64,000 bases of DNA from Chitinophaga agri (GTDB taxonomy: Bacteria > Bacteroidota > Bacteroidia > Chitinophagales > Chitinophagaceae). Positions 43,061-64,000 of the stretch are shown here, piece after piece. Both the position numbers and the translations under genes were made by a program. Below the pieces are notes generated by a model. It was not told the DNA's origin. It ran no database searches and saw only the letters and a list, made by a program, of their open reading frames with translations. Where the stretch lies: assembly GCF_010093065.1 (NCBI RefSeq), contig NZ_CP048113.1:7905926-7969925 (forward strand). Reading direction: 5' to 3'. Every line of letters starts with the position of its first letter. The first letter of the stretch is position 1.

Positions 43061-43774
43061 ATGCGATTAAATAAAGCTTTTTTTCTTATCAGCCTATTCG
43101 GCTGGGCAGCTACCGTGAAAGCACAAACGCCCAATCTGCAGGCCGTTACCACGGCCGGTAATACCACCACTAACACCATTTCCATATGGAATAAAGATGG
43201 TTTGAATATAGGTGTTGACTCAACTGTAGGTTATACGATGCAAACACATTTTTTGCGACCGTCATTGACCGAGAACAGGACGATGCGCTTTGACTGTACC
43301 GCTAATACCGCCACGGGCGGTTGGGAGTTTTACAATGTCTATTCCAGTAAAAGCCTCTTGTACATTAAGCAGAATTCAGGTAACGTCGGCATTGGTACCA
43401 CTGATCCTAAAGCGAAACTGGCTGTGAATGGTGACGTATATGCCAGACTGCTGCGCGTAAGACCTGACGGCTGGGCAGACTTTGTTTTCGAACCATCGTA
43501 TCAGCTGATGTCATTACAGGAGCTGGAATCTTATATCAACACACATAAGCACCTGCCAGATGTGCCAACAGAAGAAGATGTACGCAGAGATGGTCTTGAT
43601 CTGGGGGGGAACCAGGTTATTTTACTTCAGAAGATTGAGGAGTTGACATTACATCTCATTGATCAGGAGAAACGTGTTAATACCCAGAAAGCTCTGCTGA
43701 GTGCACAGGAAGCTGCTTTCACCGAGCAGGAAAAACGTTTGGCGGAGCTGGAGCGCAGATTAGCTGGCCAGTAG
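43061..43774 (+). CDS. Secreted tail-fibre-like protein, first gene of the RHS operon
   Basis: From ATG 43061 this is 237 residues. A signal peptide RLNKAFFLISLFGWAATVKA is followed by a beta-rich domain, with NLQAVTTAGNTTTNTISIW, MQTHFLRPSLTENRTMRFD, and VGIGTTDPKAKLAVNGDVYA. The C-terminal module has GWADFVFEPSYQLMSL, HKHLPDVPTEEDV and LQKIEELTLHLI, then a coiled-coil tail. The C-terminal module is shared with the proteins at 29762 and 43822. It may help trimerise or cap a fibre. It is 47 bases before its paralogue. Confidence 0.7.
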   Translation: MRLNKAFFLISLFGWAATVKAQTPNLQAVTTAGNTTTNTISIWNKDGLNIGVDSTVGYTMQTHFLRPSLTENRTMRFDCTANTATGGWEFYNVYSSKSLLYIKQNSGNVGIGTTDPKAKLAVNGDVYARLLRVRPDGWADFVFEPSYQLMSLQELESYINTHKHLPDVPTEEDVRRDGLDLGGNQVILLQKIEELTLHLIDQEKRVNTQKALLSAQEAAFTEQEKRLAELERRLAGQ

Positions 43775-43821
43775 TAAGAGACACCGTTGTCATGTATAGT
43801 ATTTCAATGTTTTAATTATCT

Positions 43822-44559
43822 ATGAGTAATATCAGACTCTATTTAATAGCCGCATTATTAATGGCGGCAGGGAGAACGTTTGGTCAGACCCCTACTTTAC
43901 AGGCAGTGACCGATCAGGGGAGGACTACAACTAATCCTGTAATAGTCAGGCATAGAGATGGACTCGCTTTTAATGTCGATCCCAGGAATGGTAACGTAAA
44001 AGTTCATTTTTTACGACCATCAACAACTGACATGCGTACGCTGAGGTTCGACTGTACCTCGAATGACGTTACAGCGGGATGGGAGTTCTATAATTCCAAC
44101 ACAGGGAAATCTCTTCTTTATATAAGACAGATCAGCGGCTTTGTTGGTATTAATACTGTTGGTACTCCTTCGACAATGTACAGGGTGCGCCTTGCCGTGA
44201 ACGGAGATATGTTGGCTCATAAGGTAAAAGTAACAGTGAATAACTGGGCGGACTTTGTTTTTGATTCATCATATGCGTTGCCTTCCTTACAGGAAGTTGA
44301 AAGGTATGTAGCGGCTAACAAACATCTTCCTGATATCCCATCTGCAGAAGAGATCCGTATCTGGGACCAGGAGCTGGGAGGAATGCAGGCGAAAATGCTG
44401 CAGAAAATAGAAGAGTTGACTTTGCACCTGATCTTACAGGAAAAGGATCTTTCCCAGCAGGAGCAACTCATAAAGAATAACGAGGCATTACTTCAGGAGC
44501 GGGAAAAAAGAATTGCCGGCCTGGAAGCCAAAATGAAAAATCAATCCTTGAACCTTTAA
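43822..44559 (+). CDS. Secreted tail-fibre-like protein, paralogue of the preceding gene
   Basis: This 245-residue protein has signal peptide SNIRLYLIAALLMAAGRTFG and follows the same plan as the gene before it: PTLQAVTDQGRTTTNPVIV, VHFLRPSTTDMRTLRFDCT, GWEFYNSNTGKSLLYIRQ, and the C-terminal NWADFVFDSSYALPSL, NKHLPDIPSAEEI and LQKIEELTLHLI with a coiled-coil tail. The whole length aligns with the previous protein, so this is a tandem duplication followed by divergence. It is separated from the barrel gene by one base. Confidence 0.7.
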   Translation: MSNIRLYLIAALLMAAGRTFGQTPTLQAVTDQGRTTTNPVIVRHRDGLAFNVDPRNGNVKVHFLRPSTTDMRTLRFDCTSNDVTAGWEFYNSNTGKSLLYIRQISGFVGINTVGTPSTMYRVRLAVNGDMLAHKVKVTVNNWADFVFDSSYALPSLQEVERYVAANKHLPDIPSAEEIRIWDQELGGMQAKMLQKIEELTLHLILQEKDLSQQEQLIKNNEALLQEREKRIAGLEAKMKNQSLNL

Positions 44560-44560
44560 T

Positions 44561-46960
44561 ATGTATCATATGTACAGAAAGGTATCTCCATTGGTGGTGT
44601 GCCTGTTGGTGTGGCTTAACCCGGCCAGTAATGCGGCCCCTTTGCGCATACCATCCTTATCGCGGGATAGTGTGCCCGTTGATATAACCGGCAGGGACCT
44701 GATGAGTCAACCCGAAATCAAGTCGGCAGTAGTCGATGCTGTTAACCGAAAGATTAGCTATAAAGCTGCAGGCGACACGGCTGCAGAAGCTATCCCGTTT
44801 GGCAAATTCGGACTAGGTGGCCTACACCCCAGCGCCAGAGCCCAGTTCATGGAGTATATGCGCGCAGGTAATACGAACGCCGGTATCGGAAAGATGCAGG
44901 GTATGTTTGATAGCATGAAGGACAGTGTGAAGAAGGTGCAATACATTGATAATAAACTGAGAGGATTTTATGCATTGAAAGATCGTCATTTGCCGGGCTC
45001 TCTCACGCTTCCTGGTAAACCGGAGAATAAACTCAAAGGTGCTTCCTGGACGACGACTTACAGCGACTCTACTGCGATGATGTCTGGATGGTGGAATGAA
45101 GGGGTAATACAGGATGTGTTTTCTATCGGAAGCATCCCTTTTCAGCTGAATTATTCCACGTTGTCCGGATATAATTATAACGGTGCATCATTACAGGGCG
45201 CCCATTTTGGCAAGATCGCGTTCGATAGGGAAGCTTACCTCGACAAGGTCAATCAGCAGCTGCAAAAGAAATATGATCTCCGTAAGTACTTTCTGGAAGA
45301 TCTTGATATCAGGGGCAGTATGAAAGAATATGCTGCCAGGCAGCTGACCCTGATCAAAGGTGCAGATAGTCTGAAAGGAAGGCTGTCTGCCGATCAGCTG
45401 ATGTACCTCGACAGCGCGCAACTGAGTAATGTATTATTAAGAAGCGGCGATACGGCTGCTGTCTATTATAGAAAGGTAATGGCATTGAAGCAGCAGCTGG
45501 GTGGCGTGAAGGAAATGAGCCTTATGCTGACCAGTCAGCGTGATGTGAACGGTGGTATAGCCGCATTGGTGGAGGAACCAGGGAATACCTCCCGCATAGC
45601 GTCTAACCTGATGCATTTAAGTCCATTGCAGCGCCTCATGATGCATATGAAAGAACTGCGTGTAGGTAGTATCGGTGCTGATGCCAGTAAGGGTAGTGTG
45701 TCAGATCTGTTTATGACAGGCGCTATGGGAACTTTCCTGAAAGGAAATAAGTTCATCATGCTGGGGCTTGGAAAGACAAAGGAGATGGGTATTCAGGACG
45801 CAGGATTGCAATCTGCCACCGGCAACCCCGCATACAGTATGCAGTTTGTCCGTGTTGGCCGTGGCGATATTGGCAATAAACAAAGCCATGTATCTGTGTT
45901 AAATGCGAATGCAAAACCGCAGCAACAGTATGGTATCAGTACAAGTGCGATCAGCCGTAACATTTTTGTAGGTGCTGTTTCCAAACAGTTAAGTCTGGGA
46001 GATCTGGGAACGCTCGACTTTGAGTTGTCCAAATCATCCGGACAGTTTGGTACAAACAGTCAGGATGCGGCAGCAGTGTCTAAATCGGCTGCCAGTCATT
46101 TCCTGAATGACATATGGGCGACAGCGGCTGTCGGGATGGCTTATAATGGAGAAGTGAAAAAGATAGGGTTGTCACAGAAAGTATATTTCAAATATTCCGG
46201 ACTGGGATATGTTAATCCGGGCGCGCCTTTCGGCAGCAGGGGAACAACGCAGTATGGTCTTTATGTGAAACGTAGCTGGCTGAGAAACAAGGTGATGGTC
46301 AGTGTGAGAACGGATATCCGTAACCTGGCAGTTTCTCCCTTGACAGGTGACAAACGCGGCAGCCAGCAATATGCTTTCGATGCCCGTTACCGTTTTACCC
46401 GCAGATTCTCCCTGAGCATGAATGTATTGCAGAATACCCTGAAGGAAACCTCAGAAGGTAAAAGCTATACTGCTTTTCTGAATAGGAAGATCTCCTTCAT
46501 GAGCCAGGCGAATGGTAAGATCGGCGGAAAGTCTTTCAGCAATAGCAGCACTATCGGCTTGCAGCAGCTGAATTATCTGGCGCCGGACGCACCGTTGAAA
46601 AGTCTGTTCGTAAATGCCTCCTCTATGCAGACCTGGATGGCCGGACCAGGAATGGTCATGGTCAGCGTGTTGTATAGTCGTGATGTGAAGAATACGGCGG
46701 TGTACAATAACCTGCTAAATACAGAAGGTGGTTATCAGTATACACTATGGAAGTTGTCCTGCAGCAGTGCATTGATCTATATGGATAGCAGGGACGTAGT
46801 GACGCAGCTGGGCCTTCGTCAGCAGTTGTCTGCACAGTTCTTTAAACACTGGAGCGTCACTGCGTCTGCGGACGGTCGACATAATATCAGAAATACAGCT
46901 GCCAACTATTACTACGGCAGATTTAATACAGCAATATCACTGCATTACCAGATAAACTAA
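44561..46960 (+). CDS. Predicted outer-membrane beta-barrel protein
   Basis: This 799-residue protein begins with a hydrophobic signal segment RKVSPLVVCLLVWLNPASNA (an ATG at 44570 is an alternative start). Residues ~30-340 are mostly helical and polar, with LDKVNQQLQKKYDLRKYFLE and ADSLKGRLSADQLMYLD. From about 430 to the end there are alternating amphipathic strands typical of a transmembrane barrel, such as VYFKYSGLGYVNPGAPFG and VMVSVLYSRDVKNTAVYNN. The final strand ends FNTAISLHYQIN, though without a terminal Phe. No known secretion family could be named. It sits directly upstream of the giants' genes, so it may export or display them, which is inference. Confidence 0.65.
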   Translation: MYHMYRKVSPLVVCLLVWLNPASNAAPLRIPSLSRDSVPVDITGRDLMSQPEIKSAVVDAVNRKISYKAAGDTAAEAIPFGKFGLGGLHPSARAQFMEYMRAGNTNAGIGKMQGMFDSMKDSVKKVQYIDNKLRGFYALKDRHLPGSLTLPGKPENKLKGASWTTTYSDSTAMMSGWWNEGVIQDVFSIGSIPFQLNYSTLSGYNYNGASLQGAHFGKIAFDREAYLDKVNQQLQKKYDLRKYFLEDLDIRGSMKEYAARQLTLIKGADSLKGRLSADQLMYLDSAQLSNVLLRSGDTAAVYYRKVMALKQQLGGVKEMSLMLTSQRDVNGGIAALVEEPGNTSRIASNLMHLSPLQRLMMHMKELRVGSIGADASKGSVSDLFMTGAMGTFLKGNKFIMLGLGKTKEMGIQDAGLQSATGNPAYSMQFVRVGRGDIGNKQSHVSVLNANAKPQQQYGISTSAISRNIFVGAVSKQLSLGDLGTLDFELSKSSGQFGTNSQDAAAVSKSAASHFLNDIWATAAVGMAYNGEVKKIGLSQKVYFKYSGLGYVNPGAPFGSRGTTQYGLYVKRSWLRNKVMVSVRTDIRNLAVSPLTGDKRGSQQYAFDARYRFTRRFSLSMNVLQNTLKETSEGKSYTAFLNRKISFMSQANGKIGGKSFSNSSTIGLQQLNYLAPDAPLKSLFVNASSMQTWMAGPGMVMVSVLYSRDVKNTAVYNNLLNTEGGYQYTLWKLSCSSALIYMDSRDVVTQLGLRQQLSAQFFKHWSVTASADGRHNIRNTAANYYYGRFNTAISLHYQIN

Positions 46961-46966
46961 CGGCAA

Positions 46967-48064
46967 ATGAACGTGTACAGAATATTAATGACAGGGCTGT
47001 TACTAGGCATACTGCTACCACTGCGGGCACAGGTAACCTTTTCTTTCATGCCGGAGATACAGGGCCGTACTGTGGAAAACATCTATAAGGTACGTATGGG
47101 TAACCCCGGCGCCAGACAGACGGTCAATCTTGTGATCAATGTAACAGAAGCGAAGTCGGGAATGGTGGTAAATATCAGGACAGCTCCCTTTGAGCTGTTG
47201 CCAGGTATCAATACTGTTCCGCCAGGAGCGATCTATAATGCAGCGGTGTCTTTCGGCGGCAGTAAAATAGCCACGGTGGTGAGCCAGAGCGGCTTTTTCC
47301 CCGAAGGAGATTATGACTACTGTTTCCAGTTGTATGAAGGCAGCGGACACAGTGGCGGAATACTGGACGAACAGTGCTTCTCTTACAATCTGCAACCATT
47401 CAGTTCGATGCAGCTGATACAGCCGTACGACGGGGATAAGATCTGCGATAAGCGGCCTACATTATCCTGGCAACCATTGGTGCCTGCGATCAATGGCATG
47501 ATGTATCGTTTGTTGCTGGTAGAGGTAAAAGAAGGACAGCAACGTGCGGAAGCGTTAAGAATGAACCTGGCGATTATCAATCAGCGTCAGATCCCGTTAC
47601 CAATGTTGATCTATCCTTCGCTGGCAAATCAGTTGCAGGAGGGAAAAAAATATGCCTGGCAGGTATCAGCTTATAAGAATGATCTCCTGCTGGCAGAATC
47701 AGAGATGTGGGATTTTACCGTGGAATGCGAAAAGGAGCCGGTGGAAGCGCAGCCAGATGCTTACAGAAGTCTGGATGATCTGACAAAAGGTAATTTCTAT
47801 ATAGCCCGTGGACAGGTGTTGTTTGCTTTTAATAATACCTATGCACCAGCGAACCTGCAATATACACTTCAGTGTCTAACCAAGCCTGATCAGGCATTTA
47901 AGAAACTACCGACGGTGAAGGTAGGCAGAGGGCTGAACCAGATCAGTGTAGCGTTGTCTGAAAAGAACGGACTGGTAGATGGCTATTTCTATATTATGCA
48001 TGTGACGTTGCCATCAGGAGAAACGAAACAACTGAGATTCATCTATAAACAACCTGAAGAGTGA
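46967..48064 (+). CDS. Secreted protein with fibronectin-III-like domain
   Basis: This 365-residue protein starts with a signal peptide (VYRILMTGLLLGILLPLRAQ). The next part is beta-sheet-rich, with PGARQTVNLVINVTEAKSG. A fibronectin-III-like unit spans about 145-255 (MQLIQPYDGDKICDKRPTLSW, then YAWQVSAYKNDLLLAESE). The last 100 residues form another beta domain (TLQCLTKPDQAFKKLPTVKV). Four to five Cys residues are present. It likely lies in the periplasm or on the cell surface. The stop TGA overlaps the first base of the next start (48064). It follows the barrel gene after 6 bases. Confidence 0.62.
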   Translation: MNVYRILMTGLLLGILLPLRAQVTFSFMPEIQGRTVENIYKVRMGNPGARQTVNLVINVTEAKSGMVVNIRTAPFELLPGINTVPPGAIYNAAVSFGGSKIATVVSQSGFFPEGDYDYCFQLYEGSGHSGGILDEQCFSYNLQPFSSMQLIQPYDGDKICDKRPTLSWQPLVPAINGMMYRLLLVEVKEGQQRAEALRMNLAIINQRQIPLPMLIYPSLANQLQEGKKYAWQVSAYKNDLLLAESEMWDFTVECEKEPVEAQPDAYRSLDDLTKGNFYIARGQVLFAFNNTYAPANLQYTLQCLTKPDQAFKKLPTVKVGRGLNQISVALSEKNGLVDGYFYIMHVTLPSGETKQLRFIYKQPEE

Positions 48065-48564
48065 TGATAAAACGATTAGCGGCAGTGTGCAGCCTGCTGA
48101 TATTGGCAGCATGTGGTAGTAGCAAGCGGGAGGTGATGCAGTCGGTGAAAGATAAGCACCTGTTACAGGAGAAAACCGTGAATGATTACGTGTTTCGTCT
48201 GCAGTATATGCCTCCTGAAAAGGTGGCGGACGATACCGCCTTACTGTACTTCCGGCTGAATATTACGAATAGTCAGACCAGACAGATAAAAGGAACGTCG
48301 GATCAGGGCGCGAGTTATGGTCTTGATACATTATTCTGCCTGGTCGCAGGTACGGATACGCTTATACCGGTGGATGTTAACCGGATTGCGAACGGAACGT
48401 TGAATGGCGCTGAATATATGCTGGTGTTCGATAAGCAGGCGGTACGTCGTCAGCCGGAGAGCAGGTTAGTATTCAGGGACTGGCTGTTTACACATCAGTA
48501 TTTAGTATTCCCGGTCTCAGGGAGTGCAATTAGTCAAATTGATTCATTAAGTCTGAATATATGA
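48064..48564 (+). CDS. Lipoprotein of the RHS operon
   Basis: From ATG 48064 this is 166 residues. It begins with IKRLAAVCSLLILAACGSS, a clear lipoprotein signal with Cys at residue ~17. The mature part is mainly beta-sheet (YVFRLQYMPPEKVADDTALL, YFRLNITNSQTRQIKG and YGLDTLFCLVAGTDTL). No family can be named. Overlaps with both neighbours (one base before, ATGA after) show translational coupling to the fibronectin-like gene and to the 2443-residue giant. It may anchor or assemble the complex at the outer membrane. Confidence 0.65.
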   Translation: MIKRLAAVCSLLILAACGSSKREVMQSVKDKHLLQEKTVNDYVFRLQYMPPEKVADDTALLYFRLNITNSQTRQIKGTSDQGASYGLDTLFCLVAGTDTLIPVDVNRIANGTLNGAEYMLVFDKQAVRRQPESRLVFRDWLFTHQYLVFPVSGSAISQIDSLSLNI

Positions 48565-51500
48565 AAGTAAGGACAAAGCGTGGCCGTGTACGGATTGCAT
48601 GTTTTTTTCTGGGTTTGTTACTCGTGCAGGGGCTGACACCGTCGGTAGCATGGGCCCTGACTTCCGGTCCTGCGCAACCTGAAATGCAACAATTTCAGGC
48701 AGCAGGTACCAGTGATATGGTTGATCTGTTCACAGGAGATTTTAAGTATAATATTCCGCTGCTGGATGTGGGCGGATATCCGGTTAACCTCAGTTATGCA
48801 TCTGGTGTGGGCATGGATGATGAAGCCAGCTGGGTGGGACTCGGATGGAGTCTGAATGCTGGTACGATGAACCGCCAGCTGCGTGGTATTGCAGATGACA
48901 GTGATGGTGATACATTGAGAAGTGAGAACTACATGAAGCCTAAGATTACGGGTGGCGGTAAGTTTACGTTGAGAGGAGAGTTATTTGGTAAGGGGGTGTC
49001 GGGATCAGTTTCTCTCGGTGTATTTAAGGACAACTATGACGGCTGGGGGTCAGAGGTTGGCGGAAATGTTGGTCTGTCACTGGGAATGGCGGCTATTGGT
49101 CCGGTAACGCCCGGTGTGGGCGTCGGATTAAATTCCAGCACAAGCGACGGTGTTACTGTGACACCGCATGTTTCGCTTTCGATGGAATGCGCAGACAAGG
49201 AACACTCAATATCCGCAGGTAACTCCTTATCATTTAGCTATAATACCCGGCAGGGCCTGAAAGGGTTAACACTTTCAAGTAGTTATAGTTCAGATAAGTA
49301 TCAACGGGACGATGGAAATGTTTCTTTTACTTATAATACACCACCTTTTTATCCAAAATCAAATGTAACGTTCAAGTCTACCAACACTACGTACACCGGC
49401 GATATTGGTGGAGTAACAGTGGCTGTATTTACAGGTGCACAGGCTTCGGGATATAAATCCAAGAGGGAAGTACTGAACAGAAACCAGGAGAACAGAGCCT
49501 TTGGGTTGTTGTATGCAGAAAAGGGTAGCAATGTGCCCAATGCGCTGATGGACTTTATGCGCGAGAAGGATAATCCGGTAGTGCCTGAGCTGAATAATGT
49601 GGCTATGCCTATAGCAACGCCCGATATATTCAGTTATACCAGTCAGGTAGGAGGCGGACAGTTACGTTTGTCAAGACTCAGTAGTGGTGTCTTTTTTGAC
49701 AGTGAAACAAGGGATATCTCGGATAATAAATCATTTAGCGCCGAATATGGTGTAGGGTTGTATTTTCATGGAGGAACGTCTGTTTTTCAGCAGGATATTA
49801 CTAACAGGACTGGTAAGTGGAGACAAGATAACAACTTTCTTGCTAAAGGTGATTTTGCTGCAAAGGAATCACTTGAAGAGGAACATGCGTATTTTCAGCA
49901 GATGGGAGAAAAACATGTTGATGATCAGCGATTCCTGAGTAAAATAGCTGGTGAGGATGCTGTCAGGGTACAAATGGATGGAAAGAAGGCGAAGGAATTT
50001 TTACAAACGGAATCAGGACGTTTGCTGGATAGTACTAAACCATATAAGCATGTTGGAAGGCAGCTTAGAAACACTGGTGTAATGTACATGACAGCCGGTG
50101 AAGCCATGCATGCCGGGCTGGAAAAACAGATCAGAAACTATCCTTTAAATAAGAAGGGCAGCTTTACGCCTACTATCCCGGGAGCAGCTTCTTATGATAC
50201 ATTGTCCCGTGTAAGTAAATACAGAAAAAGGAACCATATTTCCGAAATGACTGTAACGGAAGGGGATGGTAAGCGAATGGTGTATGGTTTACCTGTTTAT
50301 AATATCAGGCAGGACGAATATTCTTTTGCATCCCATGCCCGTAAACTGGATACAGCTACAGGTTTATCCAGCTTTGAGACCCGTGGAGATACCATGGTAG
50401 AGCATCAGAATTTAGGTAGTGGTATAAAAACTGTGGATGAATATTATCATAAGGAGTCACAGCCGGCTTACGCAACGTCTTATCTGCTGACTGGTATCCT
50501 GTCACCTGATTATGTAGATATAACAGGCAATGGTATTACTGAGGATGACAGAGGCACTGCGTTTAAGTTTAATTATTCTAAGGTAAACAGGGATTTCCAA
50601 TGGCGTACGCCTTATACGGATAGCCTGAAGCCTAAAAGGGCACAGTTTAACCGCGGGTTATATGCTGATCCGGATGATGATAAGTCTTCTTTTGTATGTG
50701 GACAAAAGGAATTGTGGTATATGCACTCCATCGAGTCCAAGACAATGATCGCTTATTTTATTACAGAAGACAGGAGAGATGCCATTGGCGCCGACTGGCT
50801 GGGTAGACGTGATACACTGACTAAACAGCAGGTATTGAAGGAGATCAGGTTGTATTCGAAAAATAACCTGGTAACGCCCATAAAAACAGTTGTATTTGAA
50901 TATGATTATGACTTGTGTAAGGGTATTCCTAACTCGTTAAACCGCCAGGGTAAGCTGACGTTGAAGTCTGTATATTTCAAATATGCCAGTTCTTCAAAAG
51001 GCAAGCATCACCCATATGTATTTGAATATAAAGAGAACCCGAATTATGCCTTTCTCTCTGTAGACCGGTGGGGTAATTATAAACCAAGGTATGCAAACAT
51101 CAAAGATGGCTTTGGTCAGTTGCGTAATGATGAATATCCATATAGTACACAGTCTACGGAACTTGCCAATGCCTATGCTGGAGCGTGGAGCCTTTCTCAG
51201 ATCACGCTTCCTACAGGAGGGATAATTAATGTAGACTATGAGTCTGATGATTATGCATATGTGCAGGATAAAAGGGCCACAGTGATGTCTTCTATCACCG
51301 GTATGTTTGATGGTGATGGTAACGCTACTGCCAGTTTATTACGCGCGAAATCATTTGATATAAAAATTGACAATACCACATTTGCGACAACCGATGTGCA
51401 GCAATTCAGAGATAGCTGTCTCAATGGAGAAGAGTTCCTATACATGAAGTTGTTTGTCAATGTATCAGATGATGTCAATTCAACAGATGAGTCGAAATAT

Positions 51501-54500
51501 GACTTTGTGCCCTGCTACGGACGTATTAAATCAGTGAATGTAGCAAATGGCGTAGCACGTGTACGGTTCGACGACGATACGAGACAACTGATCAGCGTGA
51601 ATCCTTTTGTTAGCGCAGTATGGCAACGTATGCGACTGGAATATCCGCGGTATGCTTATCCTGGTTATAAGAATAAGGTGGATGATGATATGCCGGTGGA
51701 AGCCATTGTGACATCTATTGCGAACGCTATCTATAACCTTTCAGAGTTATGGGAGCCTTTCATAGTGAAAGCCTGGAAGAAAAGATTTGCTTCCAGTATA
51801 AAGCTGGAGAAAAGCTTTGCCCGTATCGGTAAAATGAATGGTAAGAAGCTCGGTGGCGGCAGTCGTGTGAAGAGGATCCGCATGAGTGATGACTGGGCTG
51901 ACATGGTCAGTGGTCAGCATAGCACCCAGTATGGTCAGGAATATGATTATACGACGACACGCGGTGAGCAGGTGATCAGTAGTGGTGTGGCTGCTTATGA
52001 ACCGATGGTAGGAGCAGATGAGAACCCACTAAGACAGCCGTTGAAGTATGTACAGGATGTTAAATGGACACTGGATAATTTCTTCTATATGGAGGAGCCA
52101 TTTGGAGAGACGCTTTATCCTTCCCCACAGGTGGGTTACAGAGAAGTGAAAGTCCGTAGTCTGGGCGCTGATGGTGTGCCTGACCCTGCTAACAAGATGG
52201 GGTGGTCAACCTATGAATTTTATACGTCAAAAGAATATCCTGTATTTGTACGTAAGACAAATCTTGAAAAAGATGTACATAAACCAGCTTCCTGGTCAAA
52301 ATTCATGGGGGGCAAGTCTGTGTATGAGCTGACTATGTCCCAGGGGTATACTGTTTTTCTGAATGATATGCATGGAAAGAGTAAGGCTGAAAAAGTGTTT
52401 AATCAGAAAGGACAGTTGATCGCGTCTTCGGAATATAAGTATTTCGATGAAGAGGATGGTGGATCATTGAAGTTGAGGAACGTGGTAGATGTCGTGGATA
52501 GTACAGGTGTGATCACTAAAAACCAGGTGATCGGACGGAATATTGAGGTGTTCTCAGATATGCGTGAGTCAGAGATGAACAACCAGGGTAAGAGCATTAA
52601 TCTTGGACTAGATGTGATTCCTTTCATGGGTTTTGGGCTACCGCTGCCACATTTCCCATGGGCACAGAATGATGACTATCGTCTATTCAGATCTGCATCT
52701 GTCCTGAAAACGGTGGAATATTATGGCGTGGTCAAGTCCGTCACAAAAACCATTAACGGTTCCTCTTCTACCGCTTCTAACCTGTTGTTTGATCAATATA
52801 CGGGTCAGACTGTGGTGACACAGTCACAGAATGAATTTGAAGATCCGGTGTATAGTATGAGTATACCTGCTTACTGGATGTATGGTAGCATGGGAATGGC
52901 ATATAAAACGCTGGGTACGCTGTATAAAAATTTTCAAACAGATGAAAATGGACTTCCCTATCCACAGTTTAGGTCATTCCTGATTCCGGGTGATGAATTA
53001 GTGAATGTGCAGACAGGTTATCATACCTGGGCTGTGAATACGCCTGATTCGTTGTCTAATAAGGCGGTGCGCATGATTGATGGAAGTGGTCGTCTGGCAA
53101 AAGGACTGATTGGTGATTTTAAAGTGTACCGTTCAGGTAACCGTAACCTATTGGGGGCACCGGCCACTGCTATTACAAGTTTAAAGAATCCTATTCTAGG
53201 TAACAAACTGGTACTCCTGAATAGTAATGAACTGGGCCAGTATCAGGTCATTAATGCCTCTGCGGTGTTGTATGATGAAGCCTGGGGACAAGCGGTCGAC
53301 TGTAGTATGAAGAGCTGTCCTCCGGGATACCAGCAGGATATAGATGGGAATTGTTATCTGGCTCCTAAGCCGAGAGACACGATGAAACTGGTAGAGGGTA
53401 GCAAGAAATCTGATTACTCAACCGCAGGAGCGTTCTTTTATGATGGAGGTGCTGGCGCGAATAAAATAGGAGAAAGTAACTCCGCTTTCTGGCGAAGTCG
53501 TTTGAATGAAGTTGGGATATGGCTGGATAATGCGCACGACTATGAATGGTGGGGCGTAGAAAAATGTATTGACATACCCGAATCAAAGGATTACTTCATA
53601 GGGCACGGTAGCGATCTGACGATGGAAATCTACATTGATGATAGTTTGTTCTTCGCTTTCCCGAAAGCCGAAGATGATAACTATCGGATATGGAACGTCA
53701 GGAAGAAGTTCCTGACGAAGGGTAAACATAAGATACATGTAGAGGGGTCTAATAATGTTGGTGAAAGAAGTGTCGGATTTGAGATATATGACGTTCCCTA
53801 TGCAACATTGGAAGCTTCAAACGAGTCGGCTATTCGTACAGGGACAATATTGTCTTCTCATAGTTTTATGACTGATGCACAGGCTTTGGTTTTCAAAAAG
53901 GATAGAGATCATAATCTGGTAGGAGCTAATTTCTGGTGTGACAATGGTGTACTGCCTGATATGTGTGACCCAACACCCAACTGTGATTATAAAACGAAGG
54001 ATGAGTGTCCTGAAGGATATACCAGAACTGCAGATGGACTTTCCTGTGTCCCTATATCTGTAACCGAGGATGCGACGGCATGGGGATTGGTGGTTGGATT
54101 AGGTAGCAGGTATGCGCGGTATTGCGAAAATGGTACGGTATTTTATGATGCTTCTGGTAATCAGTTGTCCAACATCAGAGGAGAGTTCTGGGGCGGCTGT
54201 GGTAATCCCATTGGAGGTAGTAGTCGTATTGCAGCCAGTGCTGCTGTTGTAAGGGATTCCTCTATGGCAAGGGCATCCGCGTCCGCGTCGCCAGAGTTCT
54301 GCGGCCGGTTGAATAATGCCGGGATCTGGTTTAACGGAGGGCCTTTGATAGGACAGTGGATAGGTTTAAATACCTGTGTGACTATTAGTGAAAGCCGGAC
54401 CTATTACATAGGTATGGCAGTGGATAATGAGATGAGAGTCTTACTTGATCATCAGCCTGTAAAAGAACTACTGCAGGTCGATGGTAATGATGTGAATCCT

Positions 54501-55892: not shown

Positions 55893-55907
55893 AATTATCC
55901 CTGTACC

Positions 55908-56693
55908 ATGAAATTGAAATCAGGATATGTAAAGATGATCATACCTGCAGCCATTTTATTGGTGGCTGCCGGTGCCTTCGCCGCGATACCGTCACTACGG
56001 AGCCGCTTTTCGAAGAAAGAACCTGTAACAAAAAATAGGATTGTTATCACCGAGAATAACGAGCAGGATAAGAAAGTACTGTCCGAGTTATCGGGTGTCT
56101 TACATGCAATGGACACTGTCACAGTGATCACTGTGAACGGGTTTATGGACGGTGTTGATCTGGCGGACAGCACCAGCAATTTGCAGTCTGCATTTTGCTA
56201 CAGCCGCCAGGGCAATCAGGGGTATTACCAGTTGGGAGATAATGAAATGATATCGCTGACTGACGCTTACATAGTCGTGGCAAATGATGTGAAGAAGATC
56301 TTTGTCTCGCCGCCTAAGACCGTGATCAATCCTATCAGAATGCCTATACAGGCAGAAGTGGACTTCTTAGCCCATGAATCATACAAGGTGTCCCGCAGGG
56401 CTGAAGGCGCATTGACAAGAATATCCCTTACCAATCCCACTCATGCCAGCTACAGGGAGTATACAATTGCCTTTGACACGCTGCACATTGTACGTAAGTC
56501 GGTGATGCGGATGACTGATCCGGAGGCGCTGACTGACCCCACTAAGGATAAGATACTGACGATATCGATCAGTAACTGGGAAGTGGGAGCTGTGCGGAAG
56601 GACCTGTTGCGGATGGACCGTTACATCTCGCGTGTGAATGGAGAGATCGTGCCGGCAGCGAGACTGAAGGGATATGAAATAGTAAAAGACTAG
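55908..56693 (+). CDS. Membrane-anchored periplasmic protein of the RHS operon
   Basis: This 261-residue protein has one N-terminal membrane helix (MIIPAAILLVAAGAFAAI, residues ~10-28) followed by basic residues and a soluble domain. The domain is beta-rich: SELSGVLHAMDTVTVITVNG, ESYKVSRRAEGALTRISLTN and SYREYTIAFDTLHIV. It has a LolA-like flavour in strand and turn pattern, but I cannot assign it. It lies 15 bases after the first giant and 23 before the second. It is probably an inner-membrane or periplasmic accessory for the assembly of the two large proteins, which is inference. Confidence 0.6.
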   Translation: MKLKSGYVKMIIPAAILLVAAGAFAAIPSLRSRFSKKEPVTKNRIVITENNEQDKKVLSELSGVLHAMDTVTVITVNGFMDGVDLADSTSNLQSAFCYSRQGNQGYYQLGDNEMISLTDAYIVVANDVKKIFVSPPKTVINPIRMPIQAEVDFLAHESYKVSRRAEGALTRISLTNPTHASYREYTIAFDTLHIVRKSVMRMTDPEALTDPTKDKILTISISNWEVGAVRKDLLRMDRYISRVNGEIVPAARLKGYEIVKD

Positions 56694-56716
56694 GTGTTAA
56701 CCTCTTAATATCAGGA

Positions 56717-59700
56717 ATGAATATGCGTGCTGTTTACGCTAAAATATTAATGTGTGTATTGCTGCTGTTGGCCCTGTCAGGGATATCAGGAGACGCAATG
56801 GCATTCAATGCTATTGAGACATATCAGAATCAGATACAGGGAAGGCTGAAGAAGGGAGATACGCTCGTCCTGAAAGACGAGAAGTTCCAGAACAGTGCTT
56901 TTGACTGGTCTACGATCCATAACAAGACCGTGAGCAATATGATCACGTTCGGGTTGTACCGAGATTCAGGGGCGGTCTTCCCCAAAGCATTTAAATGTGA
57001 GATAGATCTAAAGGTGGAATACTGGACACAGGCAGATCTACCTGACCCTATTGTGGAAGATCATATTAAACTACAGGTTACTTATGATCCCGGCGCAGGT
57101 GTCGCTTACAAGGACGCAGATCTGTACCGCTTCCTGAACGGGCATAAGGTGAGAGTGACGATCAATGATATCACCAGTGCGGAGCTGGGAAGTGATTTTC
57201 CTCCAATATTCAGACTGGCCAGTCAGGTGATCGTAGAGCGTTGGTATGATATCGATAATAGTAAACATCTGGCGCCTCAATATTTTATTATACCATCTGC
57301 TAATGATACAACTAGTCGTAGAGTATCACTGGCATGGGAGACTATTACAGGAGCTGAAGAGTACGACCTAGAGTGGACATTTATTGATGAAGACTCAGAC
57401 AATGGCGCTTTGTTGGCGGCCCAACCTGGTAGTGTTTCAGCCGACGTATTGAAAAAGATGTTCCGTAATAACGCCACACGTGTGACCGTTCAACAGGAAT
57501 ATTATGATATATCACTGGTACATCATTCGAAGTACCTGCTGATCCGTATCCGCCCTGTTCAATATAGGGACAACGGATTCCGGCAGGAGTTCGCATGGGA
57601 GTATCAGATAAAGGATGGAGCGACTACGAAATCATCCGTGATCGTGCTGGGAGATAATCCGTGGCATGAATCCGGGAAGAACTGGCAGTACAATGCTGTG
57701 TATGCGGAGGATGGGAAGAAAAAGGAGGTTGTAAGTTATTATGACGGGTCGTTGCGCAGCCGTCAGACCGTTACGGTGAATAATTCAGATAAGAACGCGG
57801 TTGTACAGGAGGCTATTTATGACGAGTTTGGGCGCCCATTGGCTACTATTATGCCGGTGCCGTTAAAATCATCTGTATTTAAATATTATCCGGGTTTACA
57901 TATCGGACAGGGAGATTCTACCTATAATTTCAAGCATGTATATGGTAATGCGACAGCTTGTGTCGCGACACCTTTACCATTAAAAGACAGCGGGGCGGCG
58001 AGATATTATTCTGCCAACAATGAGTTCCTGGGAGATAGCCTGCGACCTGAGAACGCATATATACCGGATGCGGAAGGATATCCACTGGCGGTAACGCGTT
58101 ACACCAATGATAATACCAACAGGGTAAGCGTACAGGGTAGTGTCGGCCCCCGGTTCCAGCCTGGGGCTACTGGCGCAGTACAGTATTTTTATGGTGTACC
58201 GACCCAGTGGGAACTGGACCGTTTATTTGGTAATGATGTAGGCTACTACTCACATTATCTTAAGAATGTAGTAATAGACGGTAACGGACAGGCAAGTATT
58301 GCGTACCTTGATGCCAGTGGCAGGACGATTGCTACCGCGCTTGCAGGGAAATCACCGGGCAATCTGGATAGTTTGCCTTCCAATGCGGCGCCGGCTGAAC
58401 ATACAGATATTATACTGGACAGGCAGTTCACGTTCGATCCTACAAGAATGAAGATCTCTGCGACCGCCACACATATCAGTACTGTTGCCGGACCAGTAAA
58501 ATTACGCTTTGATGTCAGCAGACTGGTAAAGATGTATGCCGACAAGGGAGTTGATATTTGCAGCAACTGTTATTATGAAGGTAGCATCTATATCACAGAT
58601 AATTGCGGTAATGAGATTTATAAGACAGTTACCCCGTGGAAGATCGGTGATATGCTGGATTCCTGTCTGACTGCCGATGGAGTTGTTACCAGGCAGGTAG
58701 ATACCATTTTTGGCAAGGGGGAATATTATATAAAGTTAGAGATCGGTATTCCTGAGAATGCTATCAACTTCTATACAGCTGCATTTATTAAAAGGAATAA
58801 GAATCTCAGAACCGAGTGGTCTTTTGTAAAAGATGCATTACTGGAGAAAGACCTGTTTTCCTGTTTTAATGATTGTGCTACGTGTAAGGAATCCCTTGGC
58901 GAACTGAGTACATTCAGGAGCCGTATAACAGAAAGACTGATCGCGGATAAAGTCGATGTTACTACCAATACCGCTGCGATCAATGCCTGGATTGATAGTA
59001 CGTATGCTTCTCTGTATAGTCAGTGTGCTGTATTGAGAGCTAACTGTAATACATCTCCATGCGCGGAACTGGAAAAGCAACTGAAAGAGGATGTAAGTCC
59101 TGGTGGACAGTATGCGCTTTTTACAGCGGAGGGCGGTGTGCTGGAAGCGGATATAAATGTGTTAAGCCGTTACTGGAGGCAGGCATTTAAGCCATTGCCG
59201 AAAGATAGCGCAGATTATATTCAGCAGCAGTTTGAGCTGGAGGATGGTCGTATTTCATCACCACATGACAGTGCGTTTACGGTGCAACTACTGGTAAAGT
59301 ACTGGAATAGTGAGTGGGCTTCCCGGTTTGTGCAGTATCATCCGGAGTATTGTGCATTGAGGTTTTGTCAGGATAATGCCACTTCTTTATCCTGGGACAA
59401 CAGGCTGAGGGATGTTGCGACAACAGTTGCAGATATTCCGGTAGCGTCAGGCGGTGCTATTTATAGCAAAAGCTCAGTGAACTGGCTGATCGACAAGGAT
59501 CCGTTCTTCACGGCGAGGCCTGATTACAAGGAACTGTTTAAGAATGATCTGGCTAACTATTCCAGGAATGTGGCAGGTATTACAACAGCAGGTGCGTCAG
59601 TGAAGCACCTGAGTGGCTTTGTAGACTACATGTTATACTGCGCAGATTATACAGGTAGTACAAATGCCAATAATATTCCTGATAGGAATGCTAATAACTG

Positions 59701-62700
59701 GAATAACTGTCAACCGGTAAGTACCTGTATTATTCCTGACAGGGAGTGGGACTTGTACAAGACTAAATACCTGGAGCTGAAAGAGCAGTATTATAACCGT
59801 TTGAGAGATTCTTCTATTTATTGTGGTGGACGTTGTACGATAGGTAGCAGTAACAGGGTAGCTTATACTGTTGATGGGTGTCCGGCAACAGGAGATTTCA
59901 TTATCGAGTCCGGTAGTGAAGCCTGTGCAGCAGATAAGCAATCGGTGCGTATTAGTTATCTGGGTAGCCGTTTGAATACAACAGTAGCGGTTACGATATA
60001 TTATCCTGCTGAGTATAAAGCCCTTGTAGATACGACTCCGGTTACATTGTCGCCAGGTAATGAGCGTGTGAATTTGTGTATTTCAAATAAGGTGTTGCTG
60101 AGTACATTGCGTGTATCAGGAGTTAGTTGCGGGACGGGTAGCGGCGGCAATGATTTCTGCGCTACGCATACAAAGAATCATTTTGAGTTTGTTTTTAACA
60201 GTGGTAGCGGAAGGGCATATTTTCAGTATATCAATGGCGCACTTCCTGCCGGAGTAAAACCAGTGCTGGATGTTGTTTTCGGCGATGAAAACGGCAATGA
60301 GGTCTGTTCATACACTTTCAGGCGCTGGGATGCGAATGGGTTAAGTGAACGTGCTTTGTGCGATTTCATAGGCACACCTACCATCCTTCAGAAGACATTA
60401 TATTGCGATAATGTACCTGTAGATCCCAATCCGGTGGTATGTAATCCAGCTTATCAATCTAAGACCTCCAGGATCAATAATATTTCTTATTCCACACCGG
60501 AGATCACTACTGATACAACTGAATTAAAGAATATGGCGGCCGCCGGTATTCAGGCGATGATCGATCGTAACTGTGAGTCTCAGGCGGATAACTGGATAGG
60601 CTTACTGGAAGCGTGTGAAAAGATGGATACCACGAAACGTACTACTCTCAGGAACAAGCTGATTGAGATCTGTAAGATGGGTGGAGATGTTAATCATCCG
60701 AACGGAGCCAGTACATTACCTGCGGGAAAGACAACCGCCGAGGGGTATACATCTTTTAAAGATGCTATACTGGGTGTGTTGGGTATCACGGGTAAGCCGG
60801 GCATGTTATGTAATCCTTATTTACTGGATGTTCCTTATCCGTATGAGGTGAAAGCGCAGATAGCAGAGCAGACCCTGACCTCAACGAATCCAGATGTATG
60901 TCAGCGTCTCAGTGAACTGACAGCGGCCTATACAGCGGCAAATACGACCGACTCGTTCCATATCTATCTGAAGAAGACGTATGGAGCAGCAATGAACATC
61001 ACCGCAGCGGAATTAGCGTTGTTGCAGACGGGATGTAGTAACTGTCGTTACCTGCTGAAGCAACCAGTCAAGTTACCTGTATTCATGGACCGTGGTGCCA
61101 AAGGTTGCATTACAGCTGCCGAGTATACACAGGCAATGGCTGCGTTAACTGCCTTTGCGGGTGATAGTTTGATAGCAGATCATTCAAATTATGAAAGGAT
61201 AGTCACCAACTATCTGAATGCTCGTTTCGGATTCAGTTTGTCTTATAGTGCGTATGAGGCTTACCGGGATACAGTTGCTAAGAATCCATCGCTTACGATG
61301 TTGTTGTGTAATAGTCCGGTATATGTAAGTGTGACGCCTGACCAGTATGAATGTCTGATGCAGGTGATAGATGATGCGGTGGTCTCAGGAAGAGATCGTT
61401 ACAGTACGTATGTCGAGGAGGTGAAACGTCTTTTCCGTAAGGATTATATAGCAGTATGTGGAGCGAATAAGCCAGTGGTATCACTGACCAGCCTTCAGCA
61501 GACGTATCACTATACATTATATTATTATGATCAGGCAGGCAATTTAATAAGAACTGTTCCACCAGAGGGTGTGCATCCGCTTAATGACAGTCTGGCGAAG
61601 TATGTGGATGGCGCGAGAGGAGTAAGAGATACCGCTTGTAGCAGTAAATATCAGCCAGATAATAAAACGAAGGATGCAGTATTACAGACATTGACACAGG
61701 CCTTCGATCGTACTACAAATGAGGCGATGGAAATGTGGGTGTACAATGCAGGTAATAGTGAAAGCCAGGTGCTGAGTACTACGGGGGGAAAGAAATATCT
61801 CTTCAATGTGTGTATCAGTGGCGGTTATCTGAACTTTGATGTTTATACAGCAACTTTATCTGGTGCAGATGCGGATGTAGTGTTGTCAGCGCATACAACG
61901 GTAAGTCTGATGGGCGTCGGGCCGTTGACAAACTGGACGCATGTCGTTATACAGGGCGCTGGTTTTAAGGCCAATAATATGGCGATCTATGTAAATGGCA
62001 AACGTTGTCCGTCAGTGACGCAGGTGCCTACCGGCGCTTGTGGATGGAGCCTGGAGGGTAATTCTGCAGGAGTTATATTCCCGGAGAATCTGTCTTTACT
62101 GAGACATTTACGACTGTATAATCACCTGTTACCGGATGACGTGATTGCTGCGAATGCAGGCGTGTCCTGCCTGAGTCCGAGTGATGTGTATAATCCGGCA
62201 GGCACCGATTCCCTGACGCTTTGGGCGTTGTTTAACGGAGCGACAGGAGGTTCTTCCAGTGAACAAAGGTATGTGCCTGTTTATCCTGCTCATACGTTGG
62301 CGACCAGTTATGCTTACCAGTCGTTAAATGGTATACAGGTACAGCGTACGCCAGATGCCGGGGTGTCTCATTTCTGGTATGATATGCTGGGTAGGAATGT
62401 TGTGTCGCAGAATGCAGAGCAGGCGAATCCGATAGGGCAGGGGCTTGGAGGACGTCAGAGTTATACCAGGTTCGATGCACAGGGACGGGTTATTGAAGTA
62501 GGAGAGAAACTGAATGCAGAAAGATCGGCTGATTCTGTTGCGTTTGTAACTGCAGATGTGTTACATGAGTTATACGAAACCGCGGGACAGCAGGTGGTGA
62601 GGACCTATTATGATAACACGACTGATTATGTGAATATGGATGCAGGCGTAGCTGCTGCTCAGCAGAATCTGAGAAAGCGGGTAGCAGCATCTACTTACAC

Positions 62701-64000
62701 AGAAAATGATGGAGATCCCCAGCAGGTGACATATTATAGTTATGATCAGTTGGGGAATGTGAAGACGCTGTGGCAGCAGATACAGGGTTTGGGTATCAAA
62801 AAGGTTGATTATCAGTATGACCTGGCGAGTGGTAAGGTCAACAAAGTGGGCTATCAGACAGGCGGGAAGGACAGATTCTTTTACGGATATGAGTATGACG
62901 CAGAGAATCGCCTGACGAAAGCATTTACTGGTATTAATGCGGTGTCTTCAGATGGCTGGCATATTGAAAATGCGCATACCGATGCACGTTATCGCTATTT
63001 CCTTCATGGGCCGTTGGCAAGGACGGAACTGGGTCATGAACACCTTGTACAGGGTATGGACTATACATACACCTTACAGGGCTGGTTAAAGGGAGTGAAT
63101 GGTCAGTATCTGCAGGCTGACAAGGAAATGGGCTTCGATGGGGTGAAAGGTCGTCTTCATGGAGATGTAGCCAGAGATGCGTATGCTTATACCCTGGATT
63201 ATTTTAAAGATGACTATAAGCCTATTGGCGTTGGGAATGCAATGACAACCTTGTCATGGACGGCAGGTCAGCAGTCGGAAACAGGACGGGATCTGTTTAA
63301 TGGTAATATCAGCCGTAGCACCCTGGCCATCAAGCGCATCAATGATGATAAGTCAAGCGGCTATACTTACAGATATGATCAGCTAAATCGTCTGAAAGCC
63401 ATGCGTCAGCATGCACTTGTATCAGGAGCTACATCCTGGAGTGCGGCGAGCGCGGGTACTGCCTATAAAGAAGACGTTACTTATGATGCTAATGGTAACA
63501 TTCTGAGTTATTTGCGTAACGGTAGTAGTACTCGTGGCGATAACATGGACCAGCTGAGTTATGTATATGCGAAGGACGCATCTGGTAACCTGTTGCATAA
63601 CAAGTTGTTACAGGTAAAAGATGCGGTTGACAATCCGGCGTATACAGAAGACTTGAAAAATCAGAATGTAAACAATTATCTTTACGATAATATAGGTAAT
63701 CTTATCGCTGATAAGCAGGGTGCTATCGATTCAGTAGTGTGGAATGTGTATGGTAAGATTGCGCGGATACGGAAGTCGGATGGAAGTGTGTTGCAGTATG
63801 GGTATGATCCGACGGGTAACCGTGTATATAAGCTCTTTATTAAGAATGGTGTTGTAAATCGTACCTGGTATGTGCGTGATGCACAGGGGAATACATTGGC
63901 TGTTTATGGCAATAAGGATGGCGATGCGAATGTTTATTGGGAGGAGCAGCATTTGTATGGTAGTAGCCGTTTGGGTGTCTGGAATCCGGATGTGAATGTT
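56717..64000 (+). CDS. Giant secreted RHS-repeat protein, 5' part (runs off the window)
   Basis: The frame is open from ATG 56717 to the last base, 2428 codons, so the C-terminus is missing. A signal peptide covers the first ~28 residues. A fibronectin-III-like region has VSLAWETITGAEEYDLEW (~205). A Bacteroidota RHS N-domain holds YDEFGRPLATIMP (~368). A LamG-like beta sandwich lies at ~1660-1820. True YD/RHS repeats then run from ~1886: WYDMLGRN, SYDQLGN (~2008), YRYDQLNRL, TYDANGN (~2255), YGYDPTGNRVY (~2360) and LYGSSRLG (~2413). The variable tip that carries the toxin in RHS proteins should begin soon after the window's end. Confidence 0.85.
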   Translation, partial: MNMRAVYAKILMCVLLLLALSGISGDAMAFNAIETYQNQIQGRLKKGDTLVLKDEKFQNSAFDWSTIHNKTVSNMITFGLYRDSGAVFPKAFKCEIDLKVEYWTQADLPDPIVEDHIKLQVTYDPGAGVAYKDADLYRFLNGHKVRVTINDITSAELGSDFPPIFRLASQVIVERWYDIDNSKHLAPQYFIIPSANDTTSRRVSLAWETITGAEEYDLEWTFIDEDSDNGALLAAQPGSVSADVLKKMFRNNATRVTVQQEYYDISLVHHSKYLLIRIRPVQYRDNGFRQEFAWEYQIKDGATTKSSVIVLGDNPWHESGKNWQYNAVYAEDGKKKEVVSYYDGSLRSRQTVTVNNSDKNAVVQEAIYDEFGRPLATIMPVPLKSSVFKYYPGLHIGQGDSTYNFKHVYGNATACVATPLPLKDSGAARYYSANNEFLGDSLRPENAYIPDAEGYPLAVTRYTNDNTNRVSVQGSVGPRFQPGATGAVQYFYGVPTQWELDRLFGNDVGYYSHYLKNVVIDGNGQASIAYLDASGRTIATALAGKSPGNLDSLPSNAAPAEHTDIILDRQFTFDPTRMKISATATHISTVAGPVKLRFDVSRLVKMYADKGVDICSNCYYEGSIYITDNCGNEIYKTVTPWKIGDMLDSCLTADGVVTRQVDTIFGKGEYYIKLEIGIPENAINFYTAAFIKRNKNLRTEWSFVKDALLEKDLFSCFNDCATCKESLGELSTFRSRITERLIADKVDVTTNTAAINAWIDSTYASLYSQCAVLRANCNTSPCAELEKQLKEDVSPGGQYALFTAEGGVLEADINVLSRYWRQAFKPLPKDSADYIQQQFELEDGRISSPHDSAFTVQLLVKYWNSEWASRFVQYHPEYCALRFCQDNATSLSWDNRLRDVATTVADIPVASGGAIYSKSSVNWLIDKDPFFTARPDYKELFKNDLANYSRNVAGITTAGASVKHLSGFVDYMLYCADYTGSTNANNIPDRNANNWNNCQPVSTCIIPDREWDLYKTKYLELKEQYYNRLRDSSIYCGGRCTIGSSNRVAYTVDGCPATGDFIIESGSEACAADKQSVRISYLGSRLNTTVAVTIYYPAEYKALVDTTPVTLSPGNERVNLCISNKVLLSTLRVSGVSCGTGSGGNDFCATHTKNHFEFVFNSGSGRAYFQYINGALPAGVKPVLDVVFGDENGNEVCSYTFRRWDANGLSERALCDFIGTPTILQKTLYCDNVPVDPNPVVCNPAYQSKTSRINNISYSTPEITTDTTELKNMAAAGIQAMIDRNCESQADNWIGLLEACEKMDTTKRTTLRNKLIEICKMGGDVNHPNGASTLPAGKTTAEGYTSFKDAILGVLGITGKPGMLCNPYLLDVPYPYEVKAQIAEQTLTSTNPDVCQRLSELTAAYTAANTTDSFHIYLKKTYGAAMNITAAELALLQTGCSNCRYLLKQPVKLPVFMDRGAKGCITAAEYTQAMAALTAFAGDSLIADHSNYERIVTNYLNARFGFSLSYSAYEAYRDTVAKNPSLTMLLCNSPVYVSVTPDQYECLMQVIDDAVVSGRDRYSTYVEEVKRLFRKDYIAVCGANKPVVSLTSLQQTYHYTLYYYDQAGNLIRTVPPEGVHPLNDSLAKYVDGARGVRDTACSSKYQPDNKTKDAVLQTLTQAFDRTTNEAMEMWVYNAGNSESQVLSTTGGKKYLFNVCISGGYLNFDVYTATLSGADADVVLSAHTTVSLMGVGPLTNWTHVVIQGAGFKANNMAIYVNGKRCPSVTQVPTGACGWSLEGNSAGVIFPENLSLLRHLRLYNHLLPDDVIAANAGVSCLSPSDVYNPAGTDSLTLWALFNGATGGSSSEQRYVPVYPAHTLATSYAYQSLNGIQVQRTPDAGVSHFWYDMLGRNVVSQNAEQANPIGQGLGGRQSYTRFDAQGRVIEVGEKLNAERSADSVAFVTADVLHELYETAGQQVVRTYYDNTTDYVNMDAGVAAAQQNLRKRVAASTYTENDGDPQQVTYYSYDQLGNVKTLWQQIQGLGIKKVDYQYDLASGKVNKVGYQTGGKDRFFYGYEYDAENRLTKAFTGINAVSSDGWHIENAHTDARYRYFLHGPLARTELGHEHLVQGMDYTYTLQGWLKGVNGQYLQADKEMGFDGVKGRLHGDVARDAYAYTLDYFKDDYKPIGVGNAMTTLSWTAGQQSETGRDLFNGNISRSTLAIKRINDDKSSGYTYRYDQLNRLKAMRQHALVSGATSWSAASAGTAYKEDVTYDANGNILSYLRNGSSTRGDNMDQLSYVYAKDASGNLLHNKLLQVKDAVDNPAYTEDLKNQNVNNYLYDNIGNLIADKQGAIDSVVWNVYGKIARIRKSDGSVLQYGYDPTGNRVYKLFIKNGVVNRTWYVRDAQGNTLAVYGNKDGDANVYWEEQHLYGSSRLGVWNPDVNV

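Follow-up and report, generated by a model that had tools for sequence, protein, structure and literature searches.

Displacement of the C-terminal ends of Rhs toxins, with the arrays of orphan tips that accompany it, is already known (PMC2935791), and a Bacteroidota example has been reported (PMC13183296). As far as the available sections of the respective papers go, XerC/D genes occur beside polyimmunity loci (PMC3482391), orphan modules of contact-dependent growth inhibition (CDI) systems have been described (PMC11278526), and recombinase-associated arrays of orphan immunity genes are called rAID (PMC12247911). The authors of the 2009 displacement model, in the sections of PMC2935791 available, proposed a circular intermediate, asked where it originates and knew of no integrase that accompanies Rhs genes. 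The way in which Rhs and CDI toxins exchange their tips has been an open question since that description. Here we describe a locus of Chitinophaga agri in which an operon of envelope genes and two giant proteins, the second an RHS protein with a variable tip, is followed by compact units with a primase and recombinases exactly at the tip junction, which makes this question testable. The window, the whole stretch of DNA that was analysed, is the final 64 kb of the single-contig genome (contig C1, 7,969,925 bases). We consider the locus to be, quite probably, an interbacterial weapon of two separable modules: the exported giants and a mobile element that re-arms giant 2.

Tip units behind the RHS giant

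The giant with the variable end and the array of units are placed as follows:

56717..64000 of the window, then C1:1-1161; plus strand; giant 2, RHS protein with a variable tip, 2814 codons in total, with DUF6443, RHS repeat and Rhs_assc_core
C1:1172 to about 35,000 (L009, L014), outside the window; tip array, four units alternating with RHS tips and candidate immunity genes

Giant 2 is open at the end of the window and continues across the contig origin for 386 further in-frame codons from C1:1; when its two parts were searched separately, they ended at residue 2451 and began at residue 2463 of a relative's giant 2. The scores of its RHS repeat (PF05593, 24.8 bits against a cut-off of 22) and RHS-associated core (TIGR03696, 49.2 bits against 32.5) both exceed the thresholds. 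It has the form of an RHS polymorphic toxin: its C-terminal tip is variable, with a candidate immunity gene behind it, and the array holds three different types of tip behind one core.

Behind giant 2 we found an open reading frame (ORF) of 150 amino acids, a candidate immunity gene (L009:1172-1624), and then a repeated unit made up of a repressor on the opposite strand, a primase, two tyrosine recombinases, an RHS tip without a delivery part and that tip's own candidate immunity gene. The primase (894 or 897 amino acids) has a CHC2 zinc finger and a TOPRIM domain over their cut-offs and an AAA match below cut-off, and the repressor scores 84.1 bits, above the RstR family threshold of 80. Over 7.5 kb, units A and B share 99.9% identity; for units C and D the figure is 99.1% over 8.6 kb. 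Tip 3 is of the Toxin-deaminase type (PF14424, E = 4e-17) and is followed by a SUKH-family protein, and it is because of this match and this neighbour that we take the tips for toxins and the genes behind them for immunity genes; tips 1 and 2 and their neighbour genes had no Pfam match. By eye, the candidate immunity gene of tip 1 (the 150-amino-acid ORF) has a signal-peptide-like start and that of tip 2 (L009:16130-16417) resembles a small membrane protein, and the look of these genes hints that tips 1 and 2 may act on the envelope. At its far end (L014:13162-13973 and L014:14824-15126) the array holds what look by eye like transposase fragments, together with a solitary relative of the tip-2 immunity gene. 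Six primase matches are present in the genome: four in the array, one weak and DnaG-like, and one remnant that lies, with an orphan RHS tip and a repressor, beside the third RHS locus (L011:8976-11775, C1:236,976-239,775). Together these three appear to be a decayed tip element.

In nine loci, our own included, the first tip is in frame with 831 to 2518 codons of upstream protein, whereas in the aligned second tips of the same loci, after the element, the reading frame is closed within 5 to 38 codons. The main gene spans positions 1-75 of the Rhs_assc_core model and two orphan tips begin at position 16; the junction therefore lies near position 15. Its DNA encodes YYPFG...YxYGFNGKE and is of two sub-types, one per end of the stretch. 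At its right end, in the stretch 30-220 bases ahead of the orphan tips, the element has a signature of its own, although the motifs were counted in the same loci that suggested them and without correction for kinship: TTCA-N2/3-TGAA in 25 of 32 right ends (0 of 19 main-gene junctions, 103 of 2000 random windows), TTCTTTGA in 23 of 32 (4 of 19 and 52 of 2000) and both together in 19 of 32 (0 of 19 and 2 of 2000). Among intact recombinase pairs, the first recombinase has the R-H-R-H-Y residues in 55 of 55, which, together with a preferred insertion place in the RHS core, is the combination expected of an integrative element. Of 56 second recombinases, 45 lack the first Arg but 54 retain the Tyr, and because of this pattern the second recombinase is probably a weakened or non-catalytic partner. 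An integron integrase was also considered and rejected (TIGR02249, 92.3 and 22.7 bits against a cut-off of 265).

A scan of named species with the primase gave at least 78 loci, those listed including Chitinophaga, Flavobacterium, Mucilaginibacter, Belliella, Cesiribacter, Flexithrix, Elizabethkingia and Saprospiraceae, with distant matches in Gammaproteobacteria, Elusimicrobia and other bins. The RHS tip-core profile was found in 60 of the 78 primase loci listed and had no match in 122 kb of control sequence from the C. agri genome. Counting, among the loci listed, those with enough sequence on the relevant side, 72 of 73 have the repressor on the opposite strand and 57 of 58 a recombinase after the primase, and a tip stands before the element in 37 of 41 and after it in 24 of 30, with both in 28 loci. 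Closed plasmids of Aureibacter and Aureispira have the same order, and their current tip is repeated in the orphan with 98% and 100% identity. One orphan tip (L068:8663-9664) carries a C-terminal DUF3289 domain (E = 8e-11), a candidate toxin domain.

More distant relatives came from six records examined of 87 that matched, three of them annotated Proteobacteria, for which the annotation gives a single XerC-type recombinase per unit. On a plasmid of Enterobacter sp. JBIWA003 (L207) the unit lies behind a hemagglutinin-repeat (CdiA-like) protein, and an orphan ORF that follows the unit repeats the protein's C-terminal 278 residues with 100% identity. On a plasmid of Paraburkholderia sp. PREW-6R (L210) it lies behind a filamentous-hemagglutinin protein, and the orphan, annotated as an ADP-ribosyltransferase, has 49% identity with the large protein over about 80 residues and then diverges. 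In Janthinobacterium it follows an FG-GAP-repeat protein.

From gene order, its conservation, the place of the junction, the in-frame first and orphan second tip and the shared right-end signature, all of them sequence-based, we read the tip unit as a mobile element that would re-arm polymorphic toxins by site-specific integration. In the mechanism that we infer, the unit, comprising an opposite-strand RstR-like repressor, a CHC2/TOPRIM primase with an ATPase-like region and two tyrosine recombinases, would bring a candidate immunity gene and a new tip whose start is near position 16 of the RHS-associated core. It would take a circular form and be copied via its primase, and the two recombinases would then integrate it into the RHS gene, within the conserved DNA of the core. 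The incoming tip would thereby be joined in frame with the delivery gene, and the old tip, along with its immunity gene, would be displaced downstream as an orphan. Fusion of its own tip would give the element an immediately useful product plus an antidote. Repeated insertion would build an array, and, because of the order of element and tips, we suggest that the newest element adjoins the RHS gene and that older tips lie farther out. More broadly, we lean towards the view that such units form a class of self-copying circles, found across phyla, each with its own primase and tyrosine recombinases, which re-arm polymorphic toxins by inserting into the RHS core or, in a divergent branch, behind CdiA-type genes. 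They would replace the tip in frame, bring the matching immunity gene and leave an ordered, possibly re-excisable archive; at this locus they would serve an RHS giant with an envelope operon and a LolA3-type chaperone.

Several observations weigh against the integrating element, in addition to the way in which the right-end motifs were counted. Several junction pairs share only 15-33 nucleotides (random tip pairs: median 9, 95th percentile 18), so that short shared junction DNA alone does not go beyond the random-pair control and the crossover point is left imprecise. In two of the four units, copies B and D, one recombinase is frameshifted, and 18 of the 78 primase loci listed have no tip core, mostly on contigs below 7 kb, L110, L129, L135 and L156 being longer. 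Viral and phage collections held no relative of the element with good cover, and neither a circular form nor an empty site turned up in the viral, phage and examined plasmid records.

Ordinary RecA recombination between conserved core sequences could also displace the tips, as Jackson's 2009 model has it; the genes for primase and recombinases would then belong to a mobile element that hitch-hikes near RHS tips. Such recombination would fit the core DNA shared at the junctions, and orphan-tip arrays are known in bacteria for which the available sections of PMC2935791 report no integrase of such a kind. The gene order, which hardly varies and places the unit precisely between two tips, the single junction position in the core, the element's own right-end signature and the conserved catalytic residues of the recombinase all speak against it, as does the distant branch behind CdiA-type genes, with which there is no RHS core in common, and we regard RecA recombination as an unlikely explanation. 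That the tandem array is an artefact of assembly might be suspected from the frameshifts in copies B and D and from the first repeat, which begins 192 bases past the point of linearisation. Two successive units are also present in L086, which is a related array of C. pinensis YS-16, and in L087, L127, L136, L137 and L144, and the closed Aureibacter and Aureispira plasmids annotate tandem copies, with the same protein accessions twice, which makes an artefact very improbable.

The envelope operon and the export of the giants

Giant 2 is preceded in the window by the following genes:

43061..43774; plus strand; fibre-like protein 1, ORF, not a conserved operon member
43822..44559; plus strand; fibre-like protein 2, ORF, not a conserved operon member
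44561..46960; plus strand; large outer-membrane beta-barrel, 799 amino acids (AlphaFold2 model, barrel matches), preceding the FN3 gene in 29 of 29 loci of relatives
46967..48064; plus strand; FN3-like protein, 365 amino acids, 23-71% identity to relatives
48061..48564; plus strand; lipoprotein, 167 amino acids, lipobox Cys, slot present in 8 of 9 relatives
48561..55892; plus strand; giant 1, 2443 amino acids, conserved to the C-terminus, present in 29 of 29 relatives' loci
55908..56693; plus strand; LolA3-related periplasmic protein (LolA3_fam E = 2.3e-16, below cut-off), 8 of 10 orthologues matching

The original prediction had described a run of at least eight closely spaced plus-strand genes, with gaps of -4 to 47 bases, which the ORF calls bore out for these eight, and had treated them as one unit, which holds for a core alone: barrel, FN3 protein, usually a lipoprotein, giant 1, a LolA-like protein and RHS giant 2. 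The fibre-like genes do not belong to it, since one stands beside the operon in only one of nine relatives (G096). The barrel is present in 10 of 147 family genomes, our own counted, and in the nine relatives chosen by it the barrel, FN3 protein, giant 1, LolA slot and giant 2 follow one another on one strand in 9 of 9, with a lipoprotein slot in 8. Some slots were assigned by place and not by pairwise similarity, the BLAST match being 2 of 9 for the lipoprotein and 3 of 9 for LolA. In five loci giant 2 runs off the stretch, its start lying 9-55 bases past the LolA gene. The test was repeated with loci chosen by the FN3 protein, which has a match in 86 of 244 family genomes (about 60 near full length). 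In each of 20 further loci the barrel is followed, in this order, by the FN3 protein, giant 1 and giant 2; a LolA match was found in 16 of them (none in L194, L196, L198 and L199). Thus, order and strand of these four genes are kept in 29 of 29 relatives' loci, and an outer-membrane module for RHS giants is defined in the family.

Outside the family, the barrel is not universally linked: no barrel or FN3 match was found in the 6.3 kb (G462) or 8.8 kb (G338) before giant 1. This upstream check covers those two genomes, the stretches of G406 and G410 beginning inside giant 1. C. agri itself has a second operon (C1:777,527-803,755) with barrel, FN3 protein, giant-1 pieces, LolA3 and giant 2, and a profile search of its third RHS locus found no barrel, FN3 protein or LolA.

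The lipobox Cys of the lipoprotein is invariant in 8 of 8 aligned rows. The AlphaFold2 model of the barrel has a pLDDT of 67.3, and in the fold comparison many barrels matched it equally well. Pfam gave no match over cut-off for it, either of the CdiB/FhaC type (POTRA, FhaC/ShlB-type) or of any other. A PA14 domain was found in 3 of 12 giant-1 members scanned with Pfam. A possible likeness to the B part of the Tc toxin B/C complex, which has an SpvB-like N-terminal domain, was noted by eye; none of the 12 giant-1 members had an SpvB match, and a PDB sequence comparison gave no match.

Pfam scans of both giants and of the 12 giant-1 members found no PAAR or other loading domain of type VI secretion, and by eye both giants start with signal-peptide-like segments. 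For these reasons Sec export appears more likely than type VI secretion, which the original prediction had also disfavoured, although the genome encodes a TssC of Bacteroidota type (C1:6,700,899-6,702,185). That gene lies about 1.25 Mb from the operon, and we give almost no weight to the idea that the giants are Rhs effectors delivered by type VI secretion. Sec would export giants 1 and 2, which have a LolA3-type periplasmic protein between them, and the barrel, FN3 protein and lipoprotein would most likely act at the cell surface, holding the RHS giants or passing them on. We infer that the giants leave through the barrel. The moderate confidence of the barrel model, which matches no single family, counts against this, as do the giant pairs without a linked barrel (G462, G338) and the third RHS locus. 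Those same loci and the SprA encoded in the genome would suit a different arrangement, in which barrel, FN3 protein and lipoprotein are a surface anchor or regulators, while type IX secretion or some other general pathway exports the giants. The strict linkage of barrel and giants within the family and the lack of a type IX C-terminal sorting domain in Pfam and NCBIfam scans of the giants argue the other way; we hold such an arrangement to be a serious possibility, though not the one we favour, next to export through the barrel.

The LolA3-related protein between the giants

The product of the gene at 55908, originally called a membrane-anchored periplasmic protein, retained its periplasmic assignment and is now identified as a relative of LolA3, scoring 60.1 bits against the curated LolA3 (NF053579) cut-off of 83 bits; 8 of its 10 orthologues match the family, with E up to 0.01. 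In 296 Bacteroidota genomes, five proteins exceed the cut-off, those of the second C. agri operon (195.1 bits), G070, G406, G410 and G462. All five sit between giant 1 and giant 2, four of them directly; in the second C. agri operon two further genes intervene between LolA3 and giant 2. Frames of 720 and 483 codons are seen there. The LolA protein of G338 (69 bits) likewise lies between the two giants. Because neither a barrel nor an FN3 protein was matched ahead of giant 1 in G462 and G338, the minimal core is giant 1, LolA3 and giant 2.

LolA3 was named in Flavobacterium johnsoniae, where gliding and amylase secretion were unaffected by its deletion (PMC11885536), and the available sections of that paper report no cargo for it. 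The loci described here tie LolA3 to a specific pair of giant proteins, and a role with the RHS giants is a testable proposal.

Comparison with described systems

The LolA3 of F. johnsoniae belongs to the same NCBI family as the protein between the giants, and over-cut-off members of that family lie in giant 1-LolA3-giant 2 loci, whereas the window protein scores below the family cut-off. With CDI (CdiB/CdiA) the locus shares a barrel, a giant exoprotein with an exchangeable end and orphan tips, and a distant relative of the unit stands behind CdiA-like genes in Enterobacter and Paraburkholderia; it differs in that the barrel has no Pfam match over cut-off and the giants are of RHS type.

Arrays of the rAID kind and polyimmunity loci, in the available text of the reports, likewise have a tyrosine recombinase beside an immunity-gene array in Bacteroidota, but they hold immunity genes only, whereas here toxin tip and immunity gene come with a primase and a repressor and are inserted at the toxin gene. 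The units, which hold tips with their immunity genes, a primase and a repressor, are not rAID, in which a recombinase is followed by immunity genes alone. The open-licence papers searched describe no element with a primase and recombinases at the tip junction. Among the closest parallels is Rhs C-terminal displacement, for which the sections available give a core that is conserved while its tips are swapped, displaced tips that lie downstream with their immunity genes, and a proposed circular intermediate; at the locus described here, in contrast, each unit has its own primase and recombinases.

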